64,000 nucleotides of DNA from Polyangium spumosum (GTDB lineage Bacteria; Myxococcota_A; Polyangia; Polyangiales; Polyangiaceae): the NCBI RefSeq assembly GCF_009649845.1, contig NZ_WJIE01000011.1:219543-283542 (forward strand), read 5' to 3'. Position 1 is the first letter of the stretch. Each line of letters starts with the position of its first letter. Of this stretch, positions 43,940-56,353 are shown one piece after another. Position numbers and translations under genes: made by a program. Under the pieces are notes generated by a model, which had not been told where the DNA came from, ran no database searches, and saw only the letters and a list, made by a program, of their open reading frames with translations.

Positions 43940-46723
43940 ATGGCACGTCCGGGCTCCCTCTCCGTCTCCTTTGGCCTAGGCACCCTCCTCCTCGCCTTTT
44001 TTGGCGTGGGCGCCCGCCTCCCCGACCTCGTGCCCCACGCGGCCCGGATCGTCTCCCCTGCAATCACGCTCGACGCCCCGGACTATGGTCCTTCCAGGGG
44101 CAAACAGAAGAACCCCGCCGTCGCCTTCGACGGATCCAAATGGCTCGTCGTGTGGGAGGCGCCCTCGGCGGACGGCCTCGCCGTTGGCCTGCGTGGCGCC
44201 TTCGTGGGCCCCTCGGGCGCGCCGATCGACCCCCAGGGCTTCGAGATCGAGCCGGCCGTCGGGCAAAACCTCGCCCCCGCCGCCGCCTGGGACGGGGCGG
44301 GTTTCGTCGTCGCCTGGGAGAATGGCGTGCCCGGCGACGATACGAGCTGGGACATCCGCGCGCGCCGCTTCGCCCCCGACGGCGCCCCGCTCGGCCCCTC
44401 ATTCGTCCTCGCGGGCGCCGCGAATGCGCAACGCGCCCCGGCCATGGCCGGAGGGTCGAGCCGCGTCTTCGTCGTCTGGGAGGACTTTCGCAATGGCACC
44501 TCGAACGACATCTACGGCGCGCGCCTGCTCTCGAATGGCGTCCTGCTCGATCCCCTCGGCCTGCAGGTCGGCGGCGCCACGAACGAGCAGACCTTCCCCG
44601 CGGTCGCGTGGGACGGCACGAATTTCGTCGTCGCCTGGCAGGATTATCGCAGCGGCACGAGCCAGGACGTTTATGCCGCCCGCGTGACGCCGATGGGCGC
44701 CCTGCTCGATCCCGCGGGGATCGCCGTGTCCGCGATCGCGGCGAGCCAGATGTATCCGGCCATCACGAGCAGCGGCGCGGGCTCTCTCGTCGTCTGGCGT
44801 GATTACCGCAGCGGCAGCTCCTACGACATCTATGGCGCGCGCCTCGGGGTGGACGGCGTGGTCCTCGACGCCGCGGGGGTGCTCGTCTCGGCGGCGGCGG
44901 GCGCGCAGCGATATCCCGCGGTCGCGTGGGACGGCTCGAATTACGTCGCGGTCTGGGAGGACCTTCGGAATGGCGGCGGGCTCTACGACCTTTATGGAGC
45001 CCGCGTCGATCCCCAGGGCACGGTCCTCGACCCGGCGGGCTTCGCCGTGCTTAAAGGGGGCGCCGACGAGGTGTCCGTCGCGCTCGCGCCCGGCGGCGGC
45101 CATAGCCTCGCCGTCTGGGAGGGCGACGGCGACGATCGGGACATCTTCGGCGCGCGGATCGGCCAGGGGACGACGACCGTCGACGCGCCTCGGCTCCTCT
45201 CCACGGAGCCCAATACGGAGATCGTCGGCGACGCGGCGTTCGACGGCACGAACTGGCTCGTCGTCTGGGCGGATTCTCGGCAATCGGGCAGCGTCATCGC
45301 GGGCGCCCGCGTGAGCCCCGCGGGGGACGTCCTCGACGCCGCGGCGATCCTCGTCACTGCCGGCCAGGGTCCCGTCGCGAGCCCGCGTGTCGCGTTTGAT
45401 GGCACGAATCACCTCGTCGTCTGGACCGACCGGCGCACCACGCAGAACCAATCCGACGTGTATGCGGCGCGCGTGAGCCCTGCCGGCGTCGTCCTCGACC
45501 CCGGCGGTTTCCCTGTGGCCACGGGCATCTCGTCCCAGGAGTCGCCCTCGGTCGCCTCCACGGGTGGCGCCTGGCTCGTCGCCTGGCTCGACGATCGTCA
45601 TGCGGCGACGGCGTGGGACATCTATGGCGCCCGCGTCTCTCCCTTCGGCGCGGTGCAGGATCCCCAGGGGTTTCCGATCACGACCGCGCCGGGCTCGCAG
45701 TTCGTATCGGACATCGCCTCGAATGGTTCACTTTTCCTCGCCGTGGCCTCCGATCATCGCGTCGATCCGAGCGGCGACATTTCTGCTTACCGGATCGACC
45801 CGATCAGCGGCGCCGTCCTCGACCCCGCGGGTATTGCGGTCGCGGTCGCGCCGAATGCGCAGACGCGCCCCTCGGTCACGTACGATGGCGCGGACTTCCT
45901 CGTCGCCTGGACCGACGACCGAGCGCCCACGGCGCCCGACGTTTTTGCTTCGCGCGTGACGACGGCGGGGGTCGTCCTCGATCCTGCGGGCGTGCCGCTC
46001 GTCGCGACCCCGGCGGCCGAACGCGCGCCCTCGGTGGCCTTCGACGGCGCGGGTCATGTCCTCACGTATTCGACGGGCGACGCGGGCGCGAGTGACCTCG
46101 CGGGGCTCCGGCTCTCGGCCGAGGGGACGCCGGTGAATGGAGTGCCCTTCGTGATCAGCGCGGAGCCGGGCGAAGAGAGCGCGTCGATCGTGCATGCGGG
46201 GCCAGCCGGGAGGGTGCTCGTCGTGTATGGGGCGTTTGATGACGTGACGGATCGAATACGCGCCCGGGCGAGGATCGTGTCGGAGGAGGAAGGCGGGGCC
46301 GGCGGAAGCGGCGGCGGCGGCGGAAGCGGCGGCGTAGGCGGAAGCGGCGGAAACGGCGGCGTAGGTGGAAGCGGCGGCGTAGGCGGAAGCGGTGGCGGCG
46401 GCGGAAGCGGCGGCGCTGGCGGGAATGGCGGCGGCGGCGGCAATGGCGGCGCTGGCGGCAATGGCGGCGCGGGTGGCGCTGGCGGCAATGGTGGCGCTGG
46501 CGGCAATGGCGGCAATGGCGGCGCGGGGGGTGCTGGTGGCCTTGGTGGAATGGGCGGCGCGGCTTCCTCGGGCGGCGGCCTTTCCGGGCCGCTGCTCGTG
46601 GACGACGGTTGTGGGTGCCGGGTGACGGGCGAAGCGCCGGCGACCTCGCCGGGCCTGCTCTCCCTCGCCGCGCTTTTTCTCCTGCGGCGGCGCCGGAACA
46701 CGCGTAAGCTCCGCGCCGGGTGA
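43940..46723 (+). CDS. MYXO-CTERM surface protein with propeller-like repeats and Gly-rich stalk
   Basis: Encodes 927 aa. A signal peptide precedes about 14 repeats of roughly 50 residues, each with a FDGTN(F/Y)LVVW.D.R core and a DIYGARV...G.(L/V)LDPAG core, suggesting one or two large propellers. Residues about 775-870 are a Gly-rich stalk of GGNGG and GGSGG repeats. The end is a MYXO-CTERM sorting signal: GCGC, then a hydrophobic helix (LLSLAALFLL) and RRRR. Myxobacterial proteins with this tail are thought to be lipid-modified at the Cys and cut by a dedicated intramembrane protease for surface display. Confidence 0.88.
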   Translation: MARPGSLSVSFGLGTLLLAFFGVGARLPDLVPHAARIVSPAITLDAPDYGPSRGKQKNPAVAFDGSKWLVVWEAPSADGLAVGLRGAFVGPSGAPIDPQGFEIEPAVGQNLAPAAAWDGAGFVVAWENGVPGDDTSWDIRARRFAPDGAPLGPSFVLAGAANAQRAPAMAGGSSRVFVVWEDFRNGTSNDIYGARLLSNGVLLDPLGLQVGGATNEQTFPAVAWDGTNFVVAWQDYRSGTSQDVYAARVTPMGALLDPAGIAVSAIAASQMYPAITSSGAGSLVVWRDYRSGSSYDIYGARLGVDGVVLDAAGVLVSAAAGAQRYPAVAWDGSNYVAVWEDLRNGGGLYDLYGARVDPQGTVLDPAGFAVLKGGADEVSVALAPGGGHSLAVWEGDGDDRDIFGARIGQGTTTVDAPRLLSTEPNTEIVGDAAFDGTNWLVVWADSRQSGSVIAGARVSPAGDVLDAAAILVTAGQGPVASPRVAFDGTNHLVVWTDRRTTQNQSDVYAARVSPAGVVLDPGGFPVATGISSQESPSVASTGGAWLVAWLDDRHAATAWDIYGARVSPFGAVQDPQGFPITTAPGSQFVSDIASNGSLFLAVASDHRVDPSGDISAYRIDPISGAVLDPAGIAVAVAPNAQTRPSVTYDGADFLVAWTDDRAPTAPDVFASRVTTAGVVLDPAGVPLVATPAAERAPSVAFDGAGHVLTYSTGDAGASDLAGLRLSAEGTPVNGVPFVISAEPGEESASIVHAGPAGRVLVVYGAFDDVTDRIRARARIVSEEEGGAGGSGGGGGSGGVGGSGGNGGVGGSGGVGGSGGGGGSGGAGGNGGGGGNGGAGGNGGAGGAGGNGGAGGNGGNGGAGGAGGLGGMGGAASSGGGLSGPLLVDDGCGCRVTGEAPATSPGLLSLAALFLLRRRRNTRKLRAG
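46291..46560 (+). repeat. low-complexity Gly-rich coding repeat
   Basis: Short GGCGGC-type units (GGCGGAAGCGGC, GGCAATGGCGGC) repeat over about 270 bp inside the MYXO-CTERM gene. They encode Gly with regular Ser, Asn, Ala or Val. All frames stay open here, which produces spurious antisense proline-rich frames. Repeat number is likely to vary between strains. Confidence 0.8.
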
Positions 46724-49971: not shown

Positions 49972-51360
49972 TCAATCGGGATCGCGCCGCGTCCTCCGCG
50001 CCCGGATCGCCGTCTGGGGCGGCAGGACCGGCGTGACCCCCGTCCACGCCTCCAGCGACGCGAGCGCCGCGGCGCGCTCCGGCTCCGTCAGGTCCACGAT
50101 CGACGCGGAATGGTTGAGCCCCGGCGCGAAGTACACGTAGCTGTCCTCCGCGTCTCCGATCTCGAACGCCGCCGCCGAATACGGGTCGTTCTCGCCGTAA
50201 ATGAAGAGCAGCCTCTCGCCCTCGGCCGAGAGCCACGTGGACACGTCCTGCATCGCCGAGGCGTCGAACACCGGCGTCTTGCCCGGCCCCGGCACGAGGA
50301 ACGTCGCCGCCGCGTCGAGCCCCGGGAACTTCAAGAGGTCCGCGAGGTGCGCCTCCTCGACCGCCGGGTAACCGAGCTCCGTGGCGGCTTGCCAGTAGTA
50401 GGGTTCGTACGCGAGGAAGTCCGCGTCGGAATAGAAGTTCGGGCCGAGGATCTCGTTCAAGAACGCCCAGACCTCGTCGTCGGTCGCCGCGGGCCCGGGG
50501 ATGTCCCCGCAAAAACTCGCGTCGTAATATTGCCAGAAGGCGAAGACGAGCTCGACCACCGTGACCTCGAGCGCTTGCTCCCGGCCGAGCAGTTCGTAGC
50601 TGTATCCATCCGTCGTGGCCTGCGCGTCCATCCGCGCGAGCATCCCCTCGCGCCGCAGGAGCACCTCGCGCTGAAAACCGCGGAGCGCGTCCCGGCACGT
50701 GGGCTCCCCGAGCGACGCCACGAAATCCAGGTATCGCGTATCGTCCGTGCCGAGGCTATGCGGCGCGACGTAGGCGATCGTGCCGTCGACGTCGCCCGGG
50801 AAAAACCGCCGGTGGTAGACGGAGGTCATCCCGCCCTTGCTCGCACCCGCCGAGATCCATTTGCCCGTGTAGATCGGCCTGAGCGCCTCGGTGATGCGGT
50901 GATGGTCCGTCGCCGCCTGCTCGATCGTGAGCCGGGACCAGTCCGTAGGCTCCGGCCGTGAGGGCGAAAAGAACCGTTGCTCGACGAAGAGCTGATTCGC
51001 CTGGAGCAACGCGGCCGGCTCACGGAGCCTCTGCCGCGTGGGGCTCACGAAATACCCCGACGTCCCCAGCACGAACGGCGCCGCCTCGTCCCTGTGGTGC
51101 AAGAGCAAGCGCTGCGCGAACGTGGGCCCGCCCGGCGCGCCGTGATCGGCCGGTTGCTCGTACTCCATCACGAAGTACCGATACCCTTCGATCCCCGAGA
51201 CCTGCTCGGTCACGGTCATCCCGGCGATGGCCGCGAGCCGGCCTGCGATATCGAGCTCGGGCGGCGGGACGGGCTCGGCGTCGTCCGAGCAAGCGGGCAG
51301 GAGCAAGAGGGCGAGCGGGGCCACGAGCGCGAGCGCGGCCCGCGCGGGTCGAGACGTCAT
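49972..51360 (-). CDS. S37-type (PS-10) aminopeptidase lipoprotein
   Basis: Encodes 462 aa. The lipobox ALLLLPAC gives Cys24. The alpha/beta-hydrolase triad is visible: Ser in SAGASKGGMTS (about 175), Asp in YGENDPYS (about 389) and His in PGLNHSAS (about 414). VEQRFFSPSRPEPTDW and TIEQAATDHHRI match the S37 tripeptidyl/prolyl aminopeptidase family first described in Streptomyces. It is lipidated, so likely displayed at a membrane, and would release N-terminal peptides from secreted substrates. It follows the Lgt fusion on the same strand, 9 bp downstream. Confidence 0.85.
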   Translation of the reverse strand: MTSRPARAALALVAPLALLLLPACSDDAEPVPPPELDIAGRLAAIAGMTVTEQVSGIEGYRYFVMEYEQPADHGAPGGPTFAQRLLLHHRDEAAPFVLGTSGYFVSPTRQRLREPAALLQANQLFVEQRFFSPSRPEPTDWSRLTIEQAATDHHRITEALRPIYTGKWISAGASKGGMTSVYHRRFFPGDVDGTIAYVAPHSLGTDDTRYLDFVASLGEPTCRDALRGFQREVLLRREGMLARMDAQATTDGYSYELLGREQALEVTVVELVFAFWQYYDASFCGDIPGPAATDDEVWAFLNEILGPNFYSDADFLAYEPYYWQAATELGYPAVEEAHLADLLKFPGLDAAATFLVPGPGKTPVFDASAMQDVSTWLSAEGERLLFIYGENDPYSAAAFEIGDAEDSYVYFAPGLNHSASIVDLTEPERAAALASLEAWTGVTPVLPPQTAIRARRTRRDPD

Positions 51361-51369
51361 CTCATTGCC

Positions 51370-53058
51370 TCAGAGCGGCGCGACCTTCAGCCAGAATCGC
51401 GGCTCGTACGTGAAGAGCGTGTTCACGCTGCCCGACCCCATGACCGCGAAGCCGAGGGGCGTGAAGCCGATGGCGAAATGCGAGGTGAGCGGGAAGCCGA
51501 ACGCGACCTGGAACCGGGAGCCGAAGCCGTTCGCCGGCTCGAAGTAGGGCGCGTCGAAGACCACGCGCGTGTAAAACGGCAGCGCCGTGGCCTCGAGCTC
51601 CGCGTACCGGCCGAGGCCCGTGACGAACCGGATCGGCACGCCGATCCCCCATTGTGTCGCGTCGCCCGTCCCCACGAAGCGCCCTTCGAGGCCCACCTCC
51701 ATGCGCTGCCGCGGCCCCGTGGCCACGCGGAACGTGGCTTCGAGGTCGACGAGCGCGCCGTCCTTCACCGCGAACCTGCCCGGCGCGAAATACCCGCCGG
51801 CCGCGAGCCCGATGCCGAAGCGTCGCTTGTTGTAATCCTTCTGCGGATCCGCGGGCCTCTCCTCGGGCGGCAGCTCCTCGGCCGGCACCGATCTCACGGG
51901 CGTCGAGCCCGCGGCGCCCGGAGGCGGCGGATACGGGTAGGGGTAAGGGTAGGGATAGGGCGCCGCGCCCTGCGCAGGCGGCGGATACGGGTAGGGGGGA
52001 GGGTACGGATAAGGCGCCGCGCCTTGCGGAGGCGGATATGGGTACGGATAGGGCTTCGCGCCCTGCGGCGGCGGCGGCGGCGGGACGCTGGATGGCGTCG
52101 CGGCCGGAGGAGGGGTTTTTCCGGCGGGAGGCGGCGGGGGTTGTCCGGTCGAAGCAGCGGGTTTCGCCGGTTGCGCCGGTTGCGCCGGCTGCGCCGAGGC
52201 CTCCGCGGGCAGGAGCAGCGCCGCCGCCAGCATGGCCGAGGCCAGGGACAACCGCGGGCCACGCCGGGCGAGCAGCACGGCCGCGCCCACCCCGAAGAGC
52301 AGCACGATCGACACCACCTGCGCCGAGCTCAAGGGCCCGTACGTCCCGCGCGACGCGTCGCCGCGCAGCAGCTCGACCAGGAACCGCCCCACGGCGTAAA
52401 GGCCGATCCACGTGGCGAACGCCCGCCCGTCGCGCCGCGGCCCGCGTAGCCACAACGACGCGAGCGCCGCCGCCACGAGCCCCACCGCCGCCTCGTAGAG
52501 CTGCGTCGGGTGCACGGGCAGGCTCGGCGCGCCGCGCGGGATCCAGCCGAGCGCCGCGTGATCGAGCGCCGCCGGGCTGTCCACCGGGAATCGCACCCCG
52601 AAGAGCCCCGCCGTGGGCTTGCCGTAATCACAACCCGCGAGGAAACAGCCCGTCCGCACGAGCCCGTACGAGATGCCGCAGAGCGGGACGGCCCGATCCA
52701 GGAAAGGCAGCGCCTTCGCGCCCCCGCGGCGCAGCACCACCGCCGCCGCGAGCGCCGCCACGAGCAGCCCCCCGTACGCCGCGCGCCCCACGCGGAAGAA
52801 TGGCTGGATCGATCCTGCCGCGAGGGCCTCCGGCAACATCCGCAGCCATTCGAGGACGTATCCGCCGAGGAGCGCCCCCGCGTACGCCGCGACGAGCGCT
52901 CGACCTTCGAGCCCCACGTCGGCGCCGTCGCGCCGCGAGAGCCTCTGCGTGATGGCCGCGCCGATCAGCGCCGCGAGCCCCACCATCACCATGTAATCGG
53001 GCGCGAGCCACCCGGGCAGCCCGTGGCGCTCGAGCCAGGCGACGACGAGGCTCCTCAT
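51370..53058 (-). CDS. lgt: prolipoprotein diacylglyceryl transferase fused to a Pro/Tyr linker and beta-barrel-like domain
   Basis: Encodes 562 aa from ATG 53058. Residues 1 to about 275 are a polytopic Lgt domain: LLGGYVLEWLRM, VRTGCFLAGCDYGKPT (about 138, the Lgt signature region) and PVHPTQLYEA (about 182). It then runs in frame through SLASAMLAAALLLPAEASAQ (about 270-289), which itself looks like a signal peptide. A Pro/Ala then PYPYP-rich stretch (about 323-384) and a C-terminal 165-residue beta-rich domain (RRFGIGLAAGGYFAPGRF, FWLKVAPL with an aromatic end) follow, like small outer-membrane barrels. No stop separates the parts. It could be a true fusion, or an internal start could yield a separate barrel. 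It overlaps the Cys/Asn-repeat lipoprotein by 4 bp. Confidence 0.85.
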   Translation of the reverse strand: MRSLVVAWLERHGLPGWLAPDYMVMVGLAALIGAAITQRLSRRDGADVGLEGRALVAAYAGALLGGYVLEWLRMLPEALAAGSIQPFFRVGRAAYGGLLVAALAAAVVLRRGGAKALPFLDRAVPLCGISYGLVRTGCFLAGCDYGKPTAGLFGVRFPVDSPAALDHAALGWIPRGAPSLPVHPTQLYEAAVGLVAAALASLWLRGPRRDGRAFATWIGLYAVGRFLVELLRGDASRGTYGPLSSAQVVSIVLLFGVGAAVLLARRGPRLSLASAMLAAALLLPAEASAQPAQPAQPAKPAASTGQPPPPPAGKTPPPAATPSSVPPPPPPQGAKPYPYPYPPPQGAAPYPYPPPYPYPPPAQGAAPYPYPYPYPYPPPPGAAGSTPVRSVPAEELPPEERPADPQKDYNKRRFGIGLAAGGYFAPGRFAVKDGALVDLEATFRVATGPRQRMEVGLEGRFVGTGDATQWGIGVPIRFVTGLGRYAELEATALPFYTRVVFDAPYFEPANGFGSRFQVAFGFPLTSHFAIGFTPLGFAVMGSGSVNTLFTYEPRFWLKVAPL

Positions 53059-54389
53059 GGCCGCCTCCGTCGCGAGAGGAGGTACAGATACGCGATGGGG
53101 AGCGACAACCAGAACGCCGTACCTACCGGCGAGGGCACGGGCGATTGCCCGGGCCGCCGGGCGACGGCGCAATTGCTGCCCTTGCAGTTCTGGTTGCAGT
53201 CCTTGCAGTTCTGGTTGCAGTCCGAGCAGTTCTCATTGCACTTCGAGCAATTGTCGTTGCACTTCGAGCAATCCTCGTTGCAGCCGTCGCACGAGCTGCC
53301 CGAGCAACCCCCGCAGCTCGACGACGACCCGCTGCTCCCGCCCGACGAGCCCTGCGACAGCGTCCCGTCCGCGAGGCATTGCTCGAGCAGGCTCATGCAA
53401 TCCGTGCTCGCCAGGAAAGCGAGCGCGTCGTCCCGCGTCACCACGGGCAGCGCCGCGCAGGCCGAGCCGCCCGACTCCACGCACGCCCGCACCCCGTCGA
53501 TGTTCATGAGCGCGAGCACGCAGAGCGCCGCCGCGTTCGACGCGCCCTGGTTCACCCACGTGCACTCCGCGTTCGCGTCCGCGAACGTCGGATCCGTCAC
53601 GGCGTGATCACACGACGAGCTCGCCGCGCATCCGCACGTCGTCTGCACCTGGAGCGCGCATTGCTCGACGCTGTCGGGCAGCATGTACGGATTGAAATCG
53701 ACCGACAGGGGCTTCGACCCCGGGAAACCTACGATCGGGACCACGGCCGGGCTCGGCCCGCTCTCCGCGCCCTCTTCCTCGAGCGCTTCGAGCGCGACGA
53801 GCCACGACGCATTCACGTAGAGCTTGTCCTCGAAGGCCCAGGCGCCCATCGGCAGGCCCGTCGTCCGCACGATCTCCTGCGCCTCCGACCGCGCCGCGAG
53901 CTCCTTCACCCAGCGCCCCGCGCGCCCTCGGAGCGCCGCCTCTTCGAGCGCCGCCGTCGTGTCCCCCGGGCGCCCGCGCATCTTCGGCGGCCCCTCGCTC
54001 GTATCGCCGGGCTCCTTGGCCTCCCGCGGCGCGAGGAACATCTCCGCGCCTTCCTGCTCGATCGCGCCGAGCACGAGCGCGTCCTCGCCCTTCTCCTCGC
54101 GCGCCTCGTCCGCGGCGCTCGCGAGCGCGTCGAGCGTCGTGACCTCGGGCGGCGGGATCACGAGCTTCTCGTCCACGGGGACCGGGGCGAGGGCCGACTC
54201 CTCCAGCCGCAGCGCCACGTCGCGCCGCGTCTCCTTCGGCAACGACGCCATCACCTCGGGCGCCGCGCGCAGCGCGTCCCGCAGCGGGAGCGCGTCATAC
54301 GGCGGCGCCTCTTCCCCGCAGCCCGCCGAGAGCAACGCGGCGACCCACAGCGCCCCGCACCTCCCCGAGAACCTCCCCAACCGCACCAT
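53055..54389 (-). CDS. lipoprotein with Cys/Asn repeats and C-terminal sorting-like tail
   Basis: Encodes 444 aa. The signal peptide ends in LLSAGC (Cys24). The body is Ala/Glu-rich (about 30-230) followed by a globular Cys-containing part (TTCGCAASSSCDH, DANAECTW, VRACVESGGSAC). Residues about 360-408 hold 14 Cys in about 49, as a seven-residue repeat CNxNC(S/K)(D/K). A Pro/Ser segment, a single helix (about 415-437) and a final RRRRP follow, like a MYXO-CTERM tail, although the usual Gly-Cys is not adjacent. No family was recognised. Both ends could be membrane-attached. Its stop overlaps the start of the Lgt fusion (ATGA), suggesting a dedicated enzyme-substrate pair. Confidence 0.8.
   Translation of the reverse strand: MVRLGRFSGRCGALWVAALLSAGCGEEAPPYDALPLRDALRAAPEVMASLPKETRRDVALRLEESALAPVPVDEKLVIPPPEVTTLDALASAADEAREEKGEDALVLGAIEQEGAEMFLAPREAKEPGDTSEGPPKMRGRPGDTTAALEEAALRGRAGRWVKELAARSEAQEIVRTTGLPMGAWAFEDKLYVNASWLVALEALEEEGAESGPSPAVVPIVGFPGSKPLSVDFNPYMLPDSVEQCALQVQTTCGCAASSSCDHAVTDPTFADANAECTWVNQGASNAAALCVLALMNIDGVRACVESGGSACAALPVVTRDDALAFLASTDCMSLLEQCLADGTLSQGSSGGSSGSSSSCGGCSGSSCDGCNEDCSKCNDNCSKCNENCSDCNQNCKDCNQNCKGSNCAVARRPGQSPVPSPVGTAFWLSLPIAYLYLLSRRRRP
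53181..53285 (-). repeat. 21-bp coding tandem repeat (Cys/Asn heptads)
   Basis: Five 21-bp units (starts 53181, 53202, 53223, 53244 and 53265) encode the CNxNC(S/K)(D/K) heptads of the lipoprotein. The first two units are identical. The others differ mainly at synonymous or conservative positions while every Cys codon is kept, which suggests selection on the cysteines. Confidence 0.88.
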
Positions 54390-54523: not shown

Positions 54524-56245
54524 TCAGCGCCTCCCCTCGAACGGCGCGCCCGGCTTCGCCGCTCCTTGCGCCGCGGCCTCCGGGCAGGGCCCCCGCGAAA
54601 CGGCGAGCTTCCATTGCGCCCCTTCACCGATCACGATTCGTTTGTCCTGGAATGCCGGCAGGGCGCGTAGCGCCACGAGGGCGGACTCCGATTCTTTGTT
54701 TGGCTTGTGAGACCCGCCCACGGGCGCCTCGACGCACCCGACGAGCCCGTCCGCCGCGTCCAGGTGACGGAGCGCCCCGAGCGCCCGAGGCAAAAACTGC
54801 GCGACGTCCTGCGCCTCGGCCACGAGGGGCTCGGCGGGGATCACCACGTCCCGCACCGAGACCTCGGTCTCGAGGCTCCGCGACAGGTGCGCGCCGAGCA
54901 GCGCGACGCCGGGCTCGCCGAGCTGCGGCCCCTGGTGGACGACCTCGAACGTGATCGGCGCCCCCGCCGGGAACACGACCCGCACATTGAGGAGCGGCCC
55001 CGCGGCCGGCGGCCAGGCGTCGTCGAGCGCGCGCGCCACCTCCTCGCGGGTATCGTCGAGCCGCGGCGTCTTCGGCAGCGTGACCACCGGCACCTTCGAC
55101 GCCTCGATCCGCGACGTCAACGCGTCGAGCGCGGTCGCGTCCGGCACGGCGATCACCTGCACCTTGGGCACCGTCCCTGCGATGGCCGCGATCCGGCTCG
55201 TCAGGTCCTTCTCGAGCTGCGACGCCTCCTCTGCGCGCCCGAGCGTCACGAGCCGGACCGCCACGGCGTCCCGCTCCACCGTCACGCTCGACCGGACCGC
55301 GTTCTCCGGCAACGTGCCCAGGATTCGATGAATGCCCGCGCGCACCCGCACCTGCCACGTCACCTGCGCGAGCGCCTCGCGCAGGGGCACGTACACGCCC
55401 GCGACGAGCAAGAGCGGCATGAGCACGCGCAACAGCGGGCCGTACTTCAGGCCGAACACGAACCGCAACGCGCGCGCGATCCGCCGGATCAGCCCCTTCT
55501 GGTGCCTGTCGAGCTCGATCCGCTCGCTCGTCGACGCGCTCGCCCGGCTGTAGCCCAGGGCCAGGAAGCAGAGGACCGCGAAGAGCAGGATCGCGCAGAA
55601 GTTCGCGACGAAGAGCAGCCCGGCGCCGCTCCAGATGGGCTGCGCGCCGGTGCCGACGCCATACCCCACGACGCAGAGCGGCGGCACGAGCGCGATCCCG
55701 ATCGCCGTGCCCGCCGCCGTCCCCGCGCTGTCCGAGCCGGGCCGGATCGTCGTGTACGCGGCGGCGATCGCGCACAGGGTCGCGATCAAGAGGTCGAGCG
55801 CCGTCGGCGCCGTGCGCGCGGCGATCTCCGGCGTCACCTCCTGGAACGGCAGGGCGAGCGTCAGCAGCGCCGCGCTGCCCACGACGACCCCGACGCTCGT
55901 GGTCGTCCGGGCGAACGAGCGGAGCACGAGCAGCGGCGAGCCCACCGCGAGCCCCATTCCGAGCTCCACGATCGGCCCCATGAGCGGCGATATCAACATG
56001 GCGCCGATGACCACGGCGGTGCTGCCGAGCACGAGCCCGAGCGAGGCGATCCCCATCGCGAGCAGCAGCTTCAGCCAGTAACCCACCGCCTCGCCGGGGC
56101 TACGCGCGAGCATCGCGCTCACCGTCGCCTCGCGATCGGCGGGTCCGATGCCGAGCGCGAGCGCGAGCCTGTCCTGCGCCCCGCCGAGCATGTCCAGGAA
56201 CGACGGCGACTCGACCTCCGCGGTCGTGGGCTCCTGCTTGTCCAT
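54524..56245 (-). CDS. DUF389 membrane protein
   Basis: Encodes 573 aa from ATG 56245 (MDKQEPTTAEVES). The N-terminal half is the DUF389 region: six or so membrane helices with GLVLGSTAVVIGAMLISPLMGPI near residues 72-95, SFARTTTSVGVVVG, and AAGTAIGIALVPPLCVVGYG. A further helix pair precedes a periplasmic C-terminal part (about 300-573). This is two BON-like alpha/beta repeats (VRSSVTVERDAVAVRLVTLGRAEEA, VPKVQVIAVPD) and a final Cys pair. Transport activity is suspected for the family but not proven. The 134-bp gap downstream shows no clear terminator. Confidence 0.85.
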   Translation of the reverse strand: MDKQEPTTAEVESPSFLDMLGGAQDRLALALGIGPADREATVSAMLARSPGEAVGYWLKLLLAMGIASLGLVLGSTAVVIGAMLISPLMGPIVELGMGLAVGSPLLVLRSFARTTTSVGVVVGSAALLTLALPFQEVTPEIAARTAPTALDLLIATLCAIAAAYTTIRPGSDSAGTAAGTAIGIALVPPLCVVGYGVGTGAQPIWSGAGLLFVANFCAILLFAVLCFLALGYSRASASTSERIELDRHQKGLIRRIARALRFVFGLKYGPLLRVLMPLLLVAGVYVPLREALAQVTWQVRVRAGIHRILGTLPENAVRSSVTVERDAVAVRLVTLGRAEEASQLEKDLTSRIAAIAGTVPKVQVIAVPDATALDALTSRIEASKVPVVTLPKTPRLDDTREEVARALDDAWPPAAGPLLNVRVVFPAGAPITFEVVHQGPQLGEPGVALLGAHLSRSLETEVSVRDVVIPAEPLVAEAQDVAQFLPRALGALRHLDAADGLVGCVEAPVGGSHKPNKESESALVALRALPAFQDKRIVIGEGAQWKLAVSRGPCPEAAAQGAAKPGAPFEGRR

Positions 56246-56353
56246 CGCGGTTGCGATATCACGCTTCGGCCGTACGTCCACCAAGCAAATGGAGGCGGTT
56301 CCCCCGTGAAAACCGCTCGTGGGAGGGTTTGTCGACGCAGGCCCCGCCGCGCG

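Follow-up and report, generated by a model that had tools for sequence, protein, structure and literature searches.

A pair of overlapping genes was analyzed in a 64,000-nucleotide stretch of Polyangium spumosum DNA (contig NZ_WJIE01000011.1, positions 219,543 to 283,542; hereafter the window). The upstream open reading frame, ORF1, encodes a predicted Cys-rich lipoprotein, and the downstream one, ORF2, encodes a paralog of the diacylglyceryl transferase Lgt that continues in frame into a predicted outer-membrane beta-barrel (Table 1). On balance, the two genes appear to form a translationally coupled lipoprotein-maturation unit, in which the Lgt would be dedicated to the ORF1 client and the barrel would be an outer-membrane partner made together with it. 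Searches of a limited literature collection turned up neither an Lgt-barrel fusion nor the ORF1-ORF2 pair.

Conservation of the gene pair

The major data for the unit are the 22 assembled ORF1-ORF2 pairs, all of which share a 4-base NTGA overlap between the stop codon of the first gene and the start codon of the second. In the window this overlap is ATGA, and it had been reported in an earlier, sequence-only reading of this stretch together with the Cys/Asn repeat and the Arg-ended helix of the upstream lipoprotein; these features and a lipobox are all present. The set comprises six pairs from the genus Polyangium, five of the Sorangium type, seven other fused pairs (G024, G443, G444, G372, G425, G417, and G368), and four unfused pairs (L065 from a metagenome-assembled genome [MAG], G322, G132, and G362). 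Many of these are close relatives. Named relatives of the window locus comprise one MAG and four representatives each of Polyangium and Sorangium cellulosum. The fused type accounts for 18 of the 22 pairs (16 complete and 2 open to the contig end) and occurs in two families of the order. Because the remaining four are unfused, the fusion was deemed not to be needed for the unit.

Strong matches to the partner were obtained in 6 genomes of a 377-genome phylum sample, in addition to three weak matches, and an Lgt scoring above 400 bits was obtained in the identical six. At the level of the family, relatives of ORF1 were present in 17 of 108 genomes. The pairs of G322, G132, and G362 were found from the Lgt side, as the partner profile did not detect their diverged upstream proteins; these proteins share the lipobox, the Cys-rich tract, the C-x-V-A motif, the helix, and the Arg tail.

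Two Lgt trees were compared, the first built from 41 rows minus L032 and L063 and the second from the 22 paired genes plus 11 chosen unpaired ones. The close paired Lgts formed one clade in both, with support of 100/99 and 100/98, respectively. The three diverged unfused pairs joined the close pairs at 92/87 together with the unpaired Lgt of G056, and this grouping makes it likely that the pairing arose once. The placement of G056 is unsure; its related Lgt has no partner match, and the upstream neighbor lies on the opposite strand.

The ORF2 frame and its Lgt domain

ORF2 runs from an ATG at 53058 to a stop codon at 51370-51372 and encodes 562 aa with no internal stop, which bears out the single uninterrupted frame from Lgt through the linker to the tail that had been read from the sequence. 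A 600-aa version starts at an upstream TTG within ORF1, and the 562-aa version was used. The frame is likewise unbroken in five other genomes of the genus and in other genera, with neither a stop codon nor a frameshift between the Lgt and barrel parts. The ratio of the proportions of nonsynonymous to synonymous differences (pN/pS) was 0.07-0.58 in each of four ORF2 segments for all eight species pairs, although the signal-peptide segment has just 25 codons. By this measure, purifying selection acts on all four segments. Since the frame is unbroken elsewhere and the pN/pS values are in this range, it was concluded that the fused frame is not a sequencing accident.

The assignment of the N-terminal part to Lgt is supported by the following data. 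Residues 22-256 matched PF01790 (Lgt) over profile positions 14-233 of 240 with an E value of 3.1e-32 and a score of 112.2 bits, above the curated cutoff of 24.9. The domain is thus complete, as had been claimed, though motif residues are changed. The best-scoring NCBIfam equivalog model for housekeeping lgt gave 105.3 bits, below its cutoff of 334. The sole PDB sequence matching at an E value of 0.01 was that of E. coli Lgt. An AlphaFold2 model of ORF2 (mean predicted local distance difference test score [pLDDT], 63.6) contained a seven-helix Lgt part, and its top Foldseek match was E. coli Lgt 5azb (E value, 3.5e-5). The alignments used for structure prediction were shallow, with 9 and 10 rows from the window and related loci only, and the L057 row of the first starts and ends one codon early.

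Residues were numbered as in E. coli Lgt by means of the PDB-match alignment and two published accounts (PMC4728403 and PMC13251419). The equivalents of R143, G145, G154, E202, Y235, R239, E243, and R246 were identical in all 22 paired Lgts, and R143, R239, and R246 are essential in the E. coli enzyme (PMC4728403 and PMC13251419). The position of H103, unlike in E. coli, is occupied by Tyr in 18 paired Lgts, by Phe in 3, and by Trp in 1. In ORF2 the motif YGGL replaces HGGL, and RTGCFLAGCDYG replaces GRLGNFINGELWG. The diverged pairs L155, L156, and L157 have SFWGYLAG instead of YGGL with the arginines kept. Compared with E. coli Lgt (5azb and 5azc), the ORF2 Lgt belongs to the same family and shares the seven-helix fold, the catalytic arginines, and the Glu/Tyr network, whereas it differs in having N146C, E151C, and H103Y, a predicted C-terminal signal peptide and barrel, and a paired client gene.

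Five Lgt-family loci were found in the 10.76-Mb genome that holds the window, four of them besides ORF2. At one of these, L008 (4752-7236), two tandem signal peptidase II genes (lspA, PF01252) directly precede an Lgt gene, which is the natural candidate for the housekeeping enzyme.

Junction, linker, and barrel

The E. coli enzyme contains seven membrane helices (PMC4728403). In the fused genes, the seventh Lgt helix is followed by a basic stretch, a hydrophobic core, an AxA site, and then Gln (Glu once). As the C terminus of E. coli Lgt lies inside, in the cytoplasm, an eighth segment added to seven helices would face outward, as a signal peptide must. The pattern A.A/[QE], with the slash marking the predicted cut, was present in all 16 complete fused genes in the forms ASA, AAA, ATA, AEA, AHA, AFA, and ANA; apart from this site, the junction region is poorly conserved between lineages. 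A layout test was applied that combined a basic n-region, a hydrophobic core, 3-8 residues, and the cleavage site. With A.A/[QE] as the site, it was passed by 12 of the 13 complete fused genes available at that stage, the failure being L064, in which the core lies farther from the cleavage site. The same test found no signal-peptide-like stretch in two stand-alone Lgts, and the frequency of the layout plus A.A/[QE] in shuffles of the same regions was 0-0.0085.

These data suggest that one gene probably yields two proteins after cleavage by signal peptidase I. A hidden start that would make two genes of the frame was also considered and was deemed unlikely. The in-frame starts before the core shift between lineages, although some lie at the same place within Polyangium, and Shine-Dalgarno-like strings precede just 4 of them, in 3 of the 16 genes.

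The linker of the window gene is 40% Pro and contains 12 PYP repeats, in agreement with the PYPYP-rich linker described earlier. When the barrel was taken as the last 150 residues, linker lengths ranged from 40 to 228 aa in the 16 complete fused genes. PYP repeats occur in 10 of these, the Polyangium and Sorangium types, whose linkers are Pro-rich and 123-228 aa long. In G368 the linker is about 40 aa, and in the five other relatives it is 72-110 aa without PYP.

The beta-rich character ascribed to the C-terminal domain was also recovered in the structure prediction. Eight strands were modeled within residues 414-559 (two of the eight are broken in the DSSP listing), with pLDDT blocks mostly of 64-89 and dips to 47 and 57, and the linker was of low confidence. 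Foldseek matched the domain to OmpX (E value, 8.1e-4), NspA and Ail (1.1e-3 each), and OmpA (1.8e-3), with template modeling scores (target) of 0.53-0.66. The tail is predicted to be an outer-membrane-type eight-strand barrel of the same fold as these four, to which it has 8-13% identity in the Foldseek alignments, and no Pfam family matched it. A profile of the barrel was searched against 39 relatives and 4 further records. It matched once in each of 8 and 3 of them, respectively, the unmatched further record being the unfused MAG, and all 11 hits were at the fused gene; no stand-alone copy of the barrel turned up in these 43 genomes. Homologues in which the two parts are separate genes and the tail is unrelated to barrels, an outcome that the sequence-only reading had entertained, were likewise not encountered: in the MAG, the only one of the four unfused genomes searched for it, the barrel was not found.

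The lipoprotein partner

The lipobox Cys of ORF1, C24, is kept in every row of two alignments, A1 with 8 rows and A5 with 10. The repeat tract varies by lineage in both length and residues, and the number of Cys in the last 150 residues ranges from 3 to 19 over the 22 partners. At the C terminus, the window protein ends in SRRRRP after a predicted helix at 421-441, and all paired partners have a membrane helix and Arg at the end. In alignment A7, which consists of 13 chosen tails rather than all 22, one Cys, one Pro, and one Arg were invariant, and a Trp was nearly so. A Cys lies within the last 58 residues in 20 of the 22 partners, in the form C-x-[VL] in 16, and is lacking from that region in 2. 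ORF1 matched no family in Pfam or NCBIfam at E values up to 1, nor in PADLOC at values up to 0.01. Its structure prediction had a mean pLDDT of 54.5 and no PDB fold match below an E value of 4, so no claim is made for the fold.

Table 1. Features of the ORF1-ORF2 pair in window coordinates
Feature	Position	Strand	Basis
ORF1, Cys-rich lipoprotein P0002, 444 aa	53055..54389	-	Open frame
N-terminal lipoprotein signal and lipobox of ORF1, Cys24 (LLSAGC24)	54318..54389	-	Sequence
Cys/Asn repeat tract of ORF1, residues about 359-402	53184..53315	-	Sequence
C-terminal tail of ORF1: Cys407-AVA, Pro-rich spacer, membrane helix with W..LP, Arg end	53067..53171	-	Alignment A7
ATGA, overlap of ORF1 stop and ORF2 start	53055..53058	-	Direct sequence
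ORF2, fused Lgt-barrel gene P0001, 562 aa	51370..53058	-	Open frame
Lgt paralog domain, residues 1-264	52267..53058	-	PF01790, fold match 5azb, conserved residues
Internal signal peptide (predicted)/eighth membrane segment, residues 265-289, predicted cut ASA/QP	52192..52266	-	Conserved A.A/[QE], layout test
Pro/Tyr-rich linker, residues 290-412	51823..52191	-	Sequence
Eight-strand outer-membrane-type beta-barrel (predicted), residues 413-562	51373..51822	-	AlphaFold2, Foldseek

Proposed mechanism and alternatives

The following course of events is proposed. Ribosomes ending ORF1 would restart at the NTGA overlap, and client and enzyme would be made together. The Lgt part would insert with its C terminus in the cytoplasm, and the next segment would act as an internal Sec signal peptide that directs the tail to the periplasm. 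Cleavage by signal peptidase I after AxA would then release the Lgt and the barrel from each other, and the barrel would be folded into the outer membrane. From its conserved catalytic residues and the pairing, the Lgt is proposed to move diacylglycerol onto a Cys of the client, namely, that of the lipobox and possibly that near the C terminus. The barrel might, more speculatively, receive, hold, or display the client at the outer membrane. Judged from sequence comparison, it is fairly likely that the Lgt part is an active diacylglyceryl transferase, and its dedication to ORF1 is somewhat favored, while the C-terminal Cys is a doubtful target. The sequence-only reading had proposed a dedicated lipidation and export unit with a barrel bridging to the outer membrane. 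The dedicated pair was upheld by the overlap in 22 of 22 pairs and by the co-occurrence in the same six genomes, but the bridge was not, given the AxA site followed by Gln or Glu in 16 of 16 genes.

Several observations weigh against the unit as proposed. A housekeeping Lgt should lipidate the ORF1 lipobox in any case, which leaves no obvious need for a dedicated enzyme. The overlap is not special alone, as a gene of the lspA type overlaps a housekeeping-type Lgt gene as NTGA at L021. For the three weak partner matches (G079, G166, and G391), which lie outside the 22 pairs, the retrieved stretches, one of them at a contig end, revealed no Lgt motif. The unfused MAG Lgt is sister to the fused Lgt of G368, with support of 99/87 and 92/92, which makes it probable that the fusion was lost or gained twice; the fusion is thus dispensable. 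The motif A.A[QE] alone was frequent in shuffles (0.33-0.60 for 7 sequences scored, in an Ala-rich region), a test too loose to be informative, and was rare only when the signal-peptide layout was demanded as well. Within the Lgt domain, the positions of both N146 and E151 are Cys in all 22 paired Lgts, and the GGL motif is absent in 3 of them. The N146A substitution abolishes the function of E. coli Lgt, and an M. smegmatis Lgt paralog with N146C is presumed to be weak (PMC13251419).

The alternative that survives best, though it is still unlikely, is an accidental fusion in which the stop codon between a membrane-protein gene and an outer-membrane-protein gene was lost and the barrel, unrelated to Lgt, works alone after cleavage. 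This would be consistent with the full signal peptide kept at the junction with its own cleavage site and with the existence of unfused pairs. It is harder to reconcile with the spread of the fused type through 18 of 22 pairs and two families, and with the failure of the barrel profile to turn up a separate gene in any of the 43 genomes.

The changes at N146, E151, and H103 (the last to Tyr, Phe, or Trp) could also be taken to mean that the Lgt part is inactive in lipid transfer and acts as a membrane scaffold or a lipid-binding chaperone for the Cys-rich protein. We regard this as improbable. Cys at 146 and Tyr at 103 are known in other Lgts: Y or W replaces H103 in other phyla, and N146 and E151 are replaced by C or C/D in distant Lgts, according to a 2026 paper (PMC13251419). 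The R.GC...GC type was found in 39 of the 41 Lgts compared, including one beside lspA, the exceptions being L009 and L010, and arginines 143, 239, and 246 are invariant in the 22 paired Lgts together with E243 and Y235.

Least probable of all is the bridge, in which the ORF2 chain stays uncut and the linker spans the periplasm to join an inner-membrane Lgt to an outer-membrane barrel; the single open frame and the long, Pro-rich linkers of the Polyangium and Sorangium types, which resemble TonB-type spanners, would fit it, but it was set aside because the cleavage site is conserved at the right place and the linker is short in G368, those of the five other non-PYP relatives being intermediate in length.

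Relation to MYXO-CTERM and other known systems

Myxosortase cuts MYXO-CTERM tails, and a 2025 paper proposes that the Cys is lipidated earlier by a predicted Lgt-like acyltransferase, the enzyme being unidentified there (PMC11980579). Like the proteins of that model, ORF1 has a Cys, a membrane helix, and an Arg tail. It differs in having a tail that scores below the cutoffs, an extra N-terminal lipobox, and an enzyme gene that adjoins the client gene. None of 10 ORF1-type tails scored above the cutoffs of TIGR03901 or TIGR03382, and the window tail gave no match; the best tails were those of the MAG (18.0 versus 20 for TIGR03901) and L049 (15.0 versus 15.85 for TIGR03382). A MYXO-CTERM hidden Markov model (HMM) of our own was built from 24 of 30 fetched tails, four having no readable tail and two being on the wrong strand. 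With this HMM, 1 of 15 tails, that of the MAG, was rare relative to shuffles, and weakly so (11/200). Membership of ORF1 in MYXO-CTERM was rejected, as neither the curated models nor our HMM supported it.

A distant likeness of the two tails is nevertheless possible. In hhalign, a profile of 13 ORF1 tails matched the 24 MYXO-CTERM tails with a probability of 82 over 13 columns and a score of 27.8; none of 30 column permutations scored as high, although the highest came near (26.0). When the ORF1-tail profile was searched against four genomes, MYXO-CTERM genes made up 8 of the 21 non-client matches, all weak (E values, 0.007-0.91), and in the window genome they made up 6 of 9 weak non-client matches. 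In the boldest reading, the Lgt paralog would be a dedicated enzyme that lipidates the C-terminal Cys of the tripartite tail, the pair being a self-contained relative of the MYXO-CTERM acyltransferase step, and the same frame in Polyangiales would supply, by way of the internal signal peptide, the barrel that displays a doubly anchored protein; we consider this extended version of the unit rather improbable. An Lgt-type enzyme and a client with a helix and an Arg tail nonetheless overlap at 22 of 22 loci, and the pair is therefore a small, directly testable enzyme-client case. As side observations, a MYXO-CTERM protein ends at window positions 46604-46722, about 6 kb from the pair, and is one of 42 such matches in the genome; in L072, too, a MYXO-CTERM match was noted close to the pair, and a tail of MYXO-CTERM look, judged by appearance and not by a model, lies near that of the MAG.

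Other known systems resemble parts of the pair. The Bradyrhizobium fbcH gene encodes a cytochrome b/c1 precursor that signal peptidase cuts at an internal signal, so that a single gene is the source of both an inner-membrane and an exported protein. Its products are unrelated to those of ORF2, whose exported half is predicted to be an outer-membrane barrel. Should the internal signal peptide of ORF2 be cut, the gene would be a bacterial example of one frame that gives an inner-membrane enzyme and an outer-membrane protein. In the MrtJ/JDVT-CTERM pairs, one sorting enzyme stands beside one client with a sorting tail, as here, but that enzyme is a protease (PMC11980579), whereas the enzyme of the present pair is of the Lgt type. 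M. tuberculosis Lgt likewise has a long C-terminal extension, which is reported to lack homology with known proteins (PMC13251419), whereas that of ORF2 is a predicted outer-membrane barrel after a predicted signal peptide.

Other Lgt paralogs and neighboring genes

Among the remaining Lgt-family loci of the genome, L007 (5072-6511) encodes a different paralog, of 479 aa, whose long C-terminal part ends in a stretch rich in Asp, Glu, and Lys, and similar paralogs were seen in relatives at L020, L023, L037, and L040. Two further loci, L009 (6737-8134) and L010 (5600-6337), encode Lgt-like proteins in which the signature is replaced by RAGCSVVHDHPG / RAACAFAHDHPG; these perhaps belong to the motif-poor myxobacterial subgroup mentioned in PMC13251419.

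Phage and defense links of the locus were looked for, and none were found. The genes adjoining the pair, both on the reverse strand, encode a DUF389 membrane protein (54527-56284) and a peptidase S37 protein (49975-51360). A peptidase S37 gene, as assigned by a gene caller, also lies beside the pair in four of the five other loci of the genus Polyangium.

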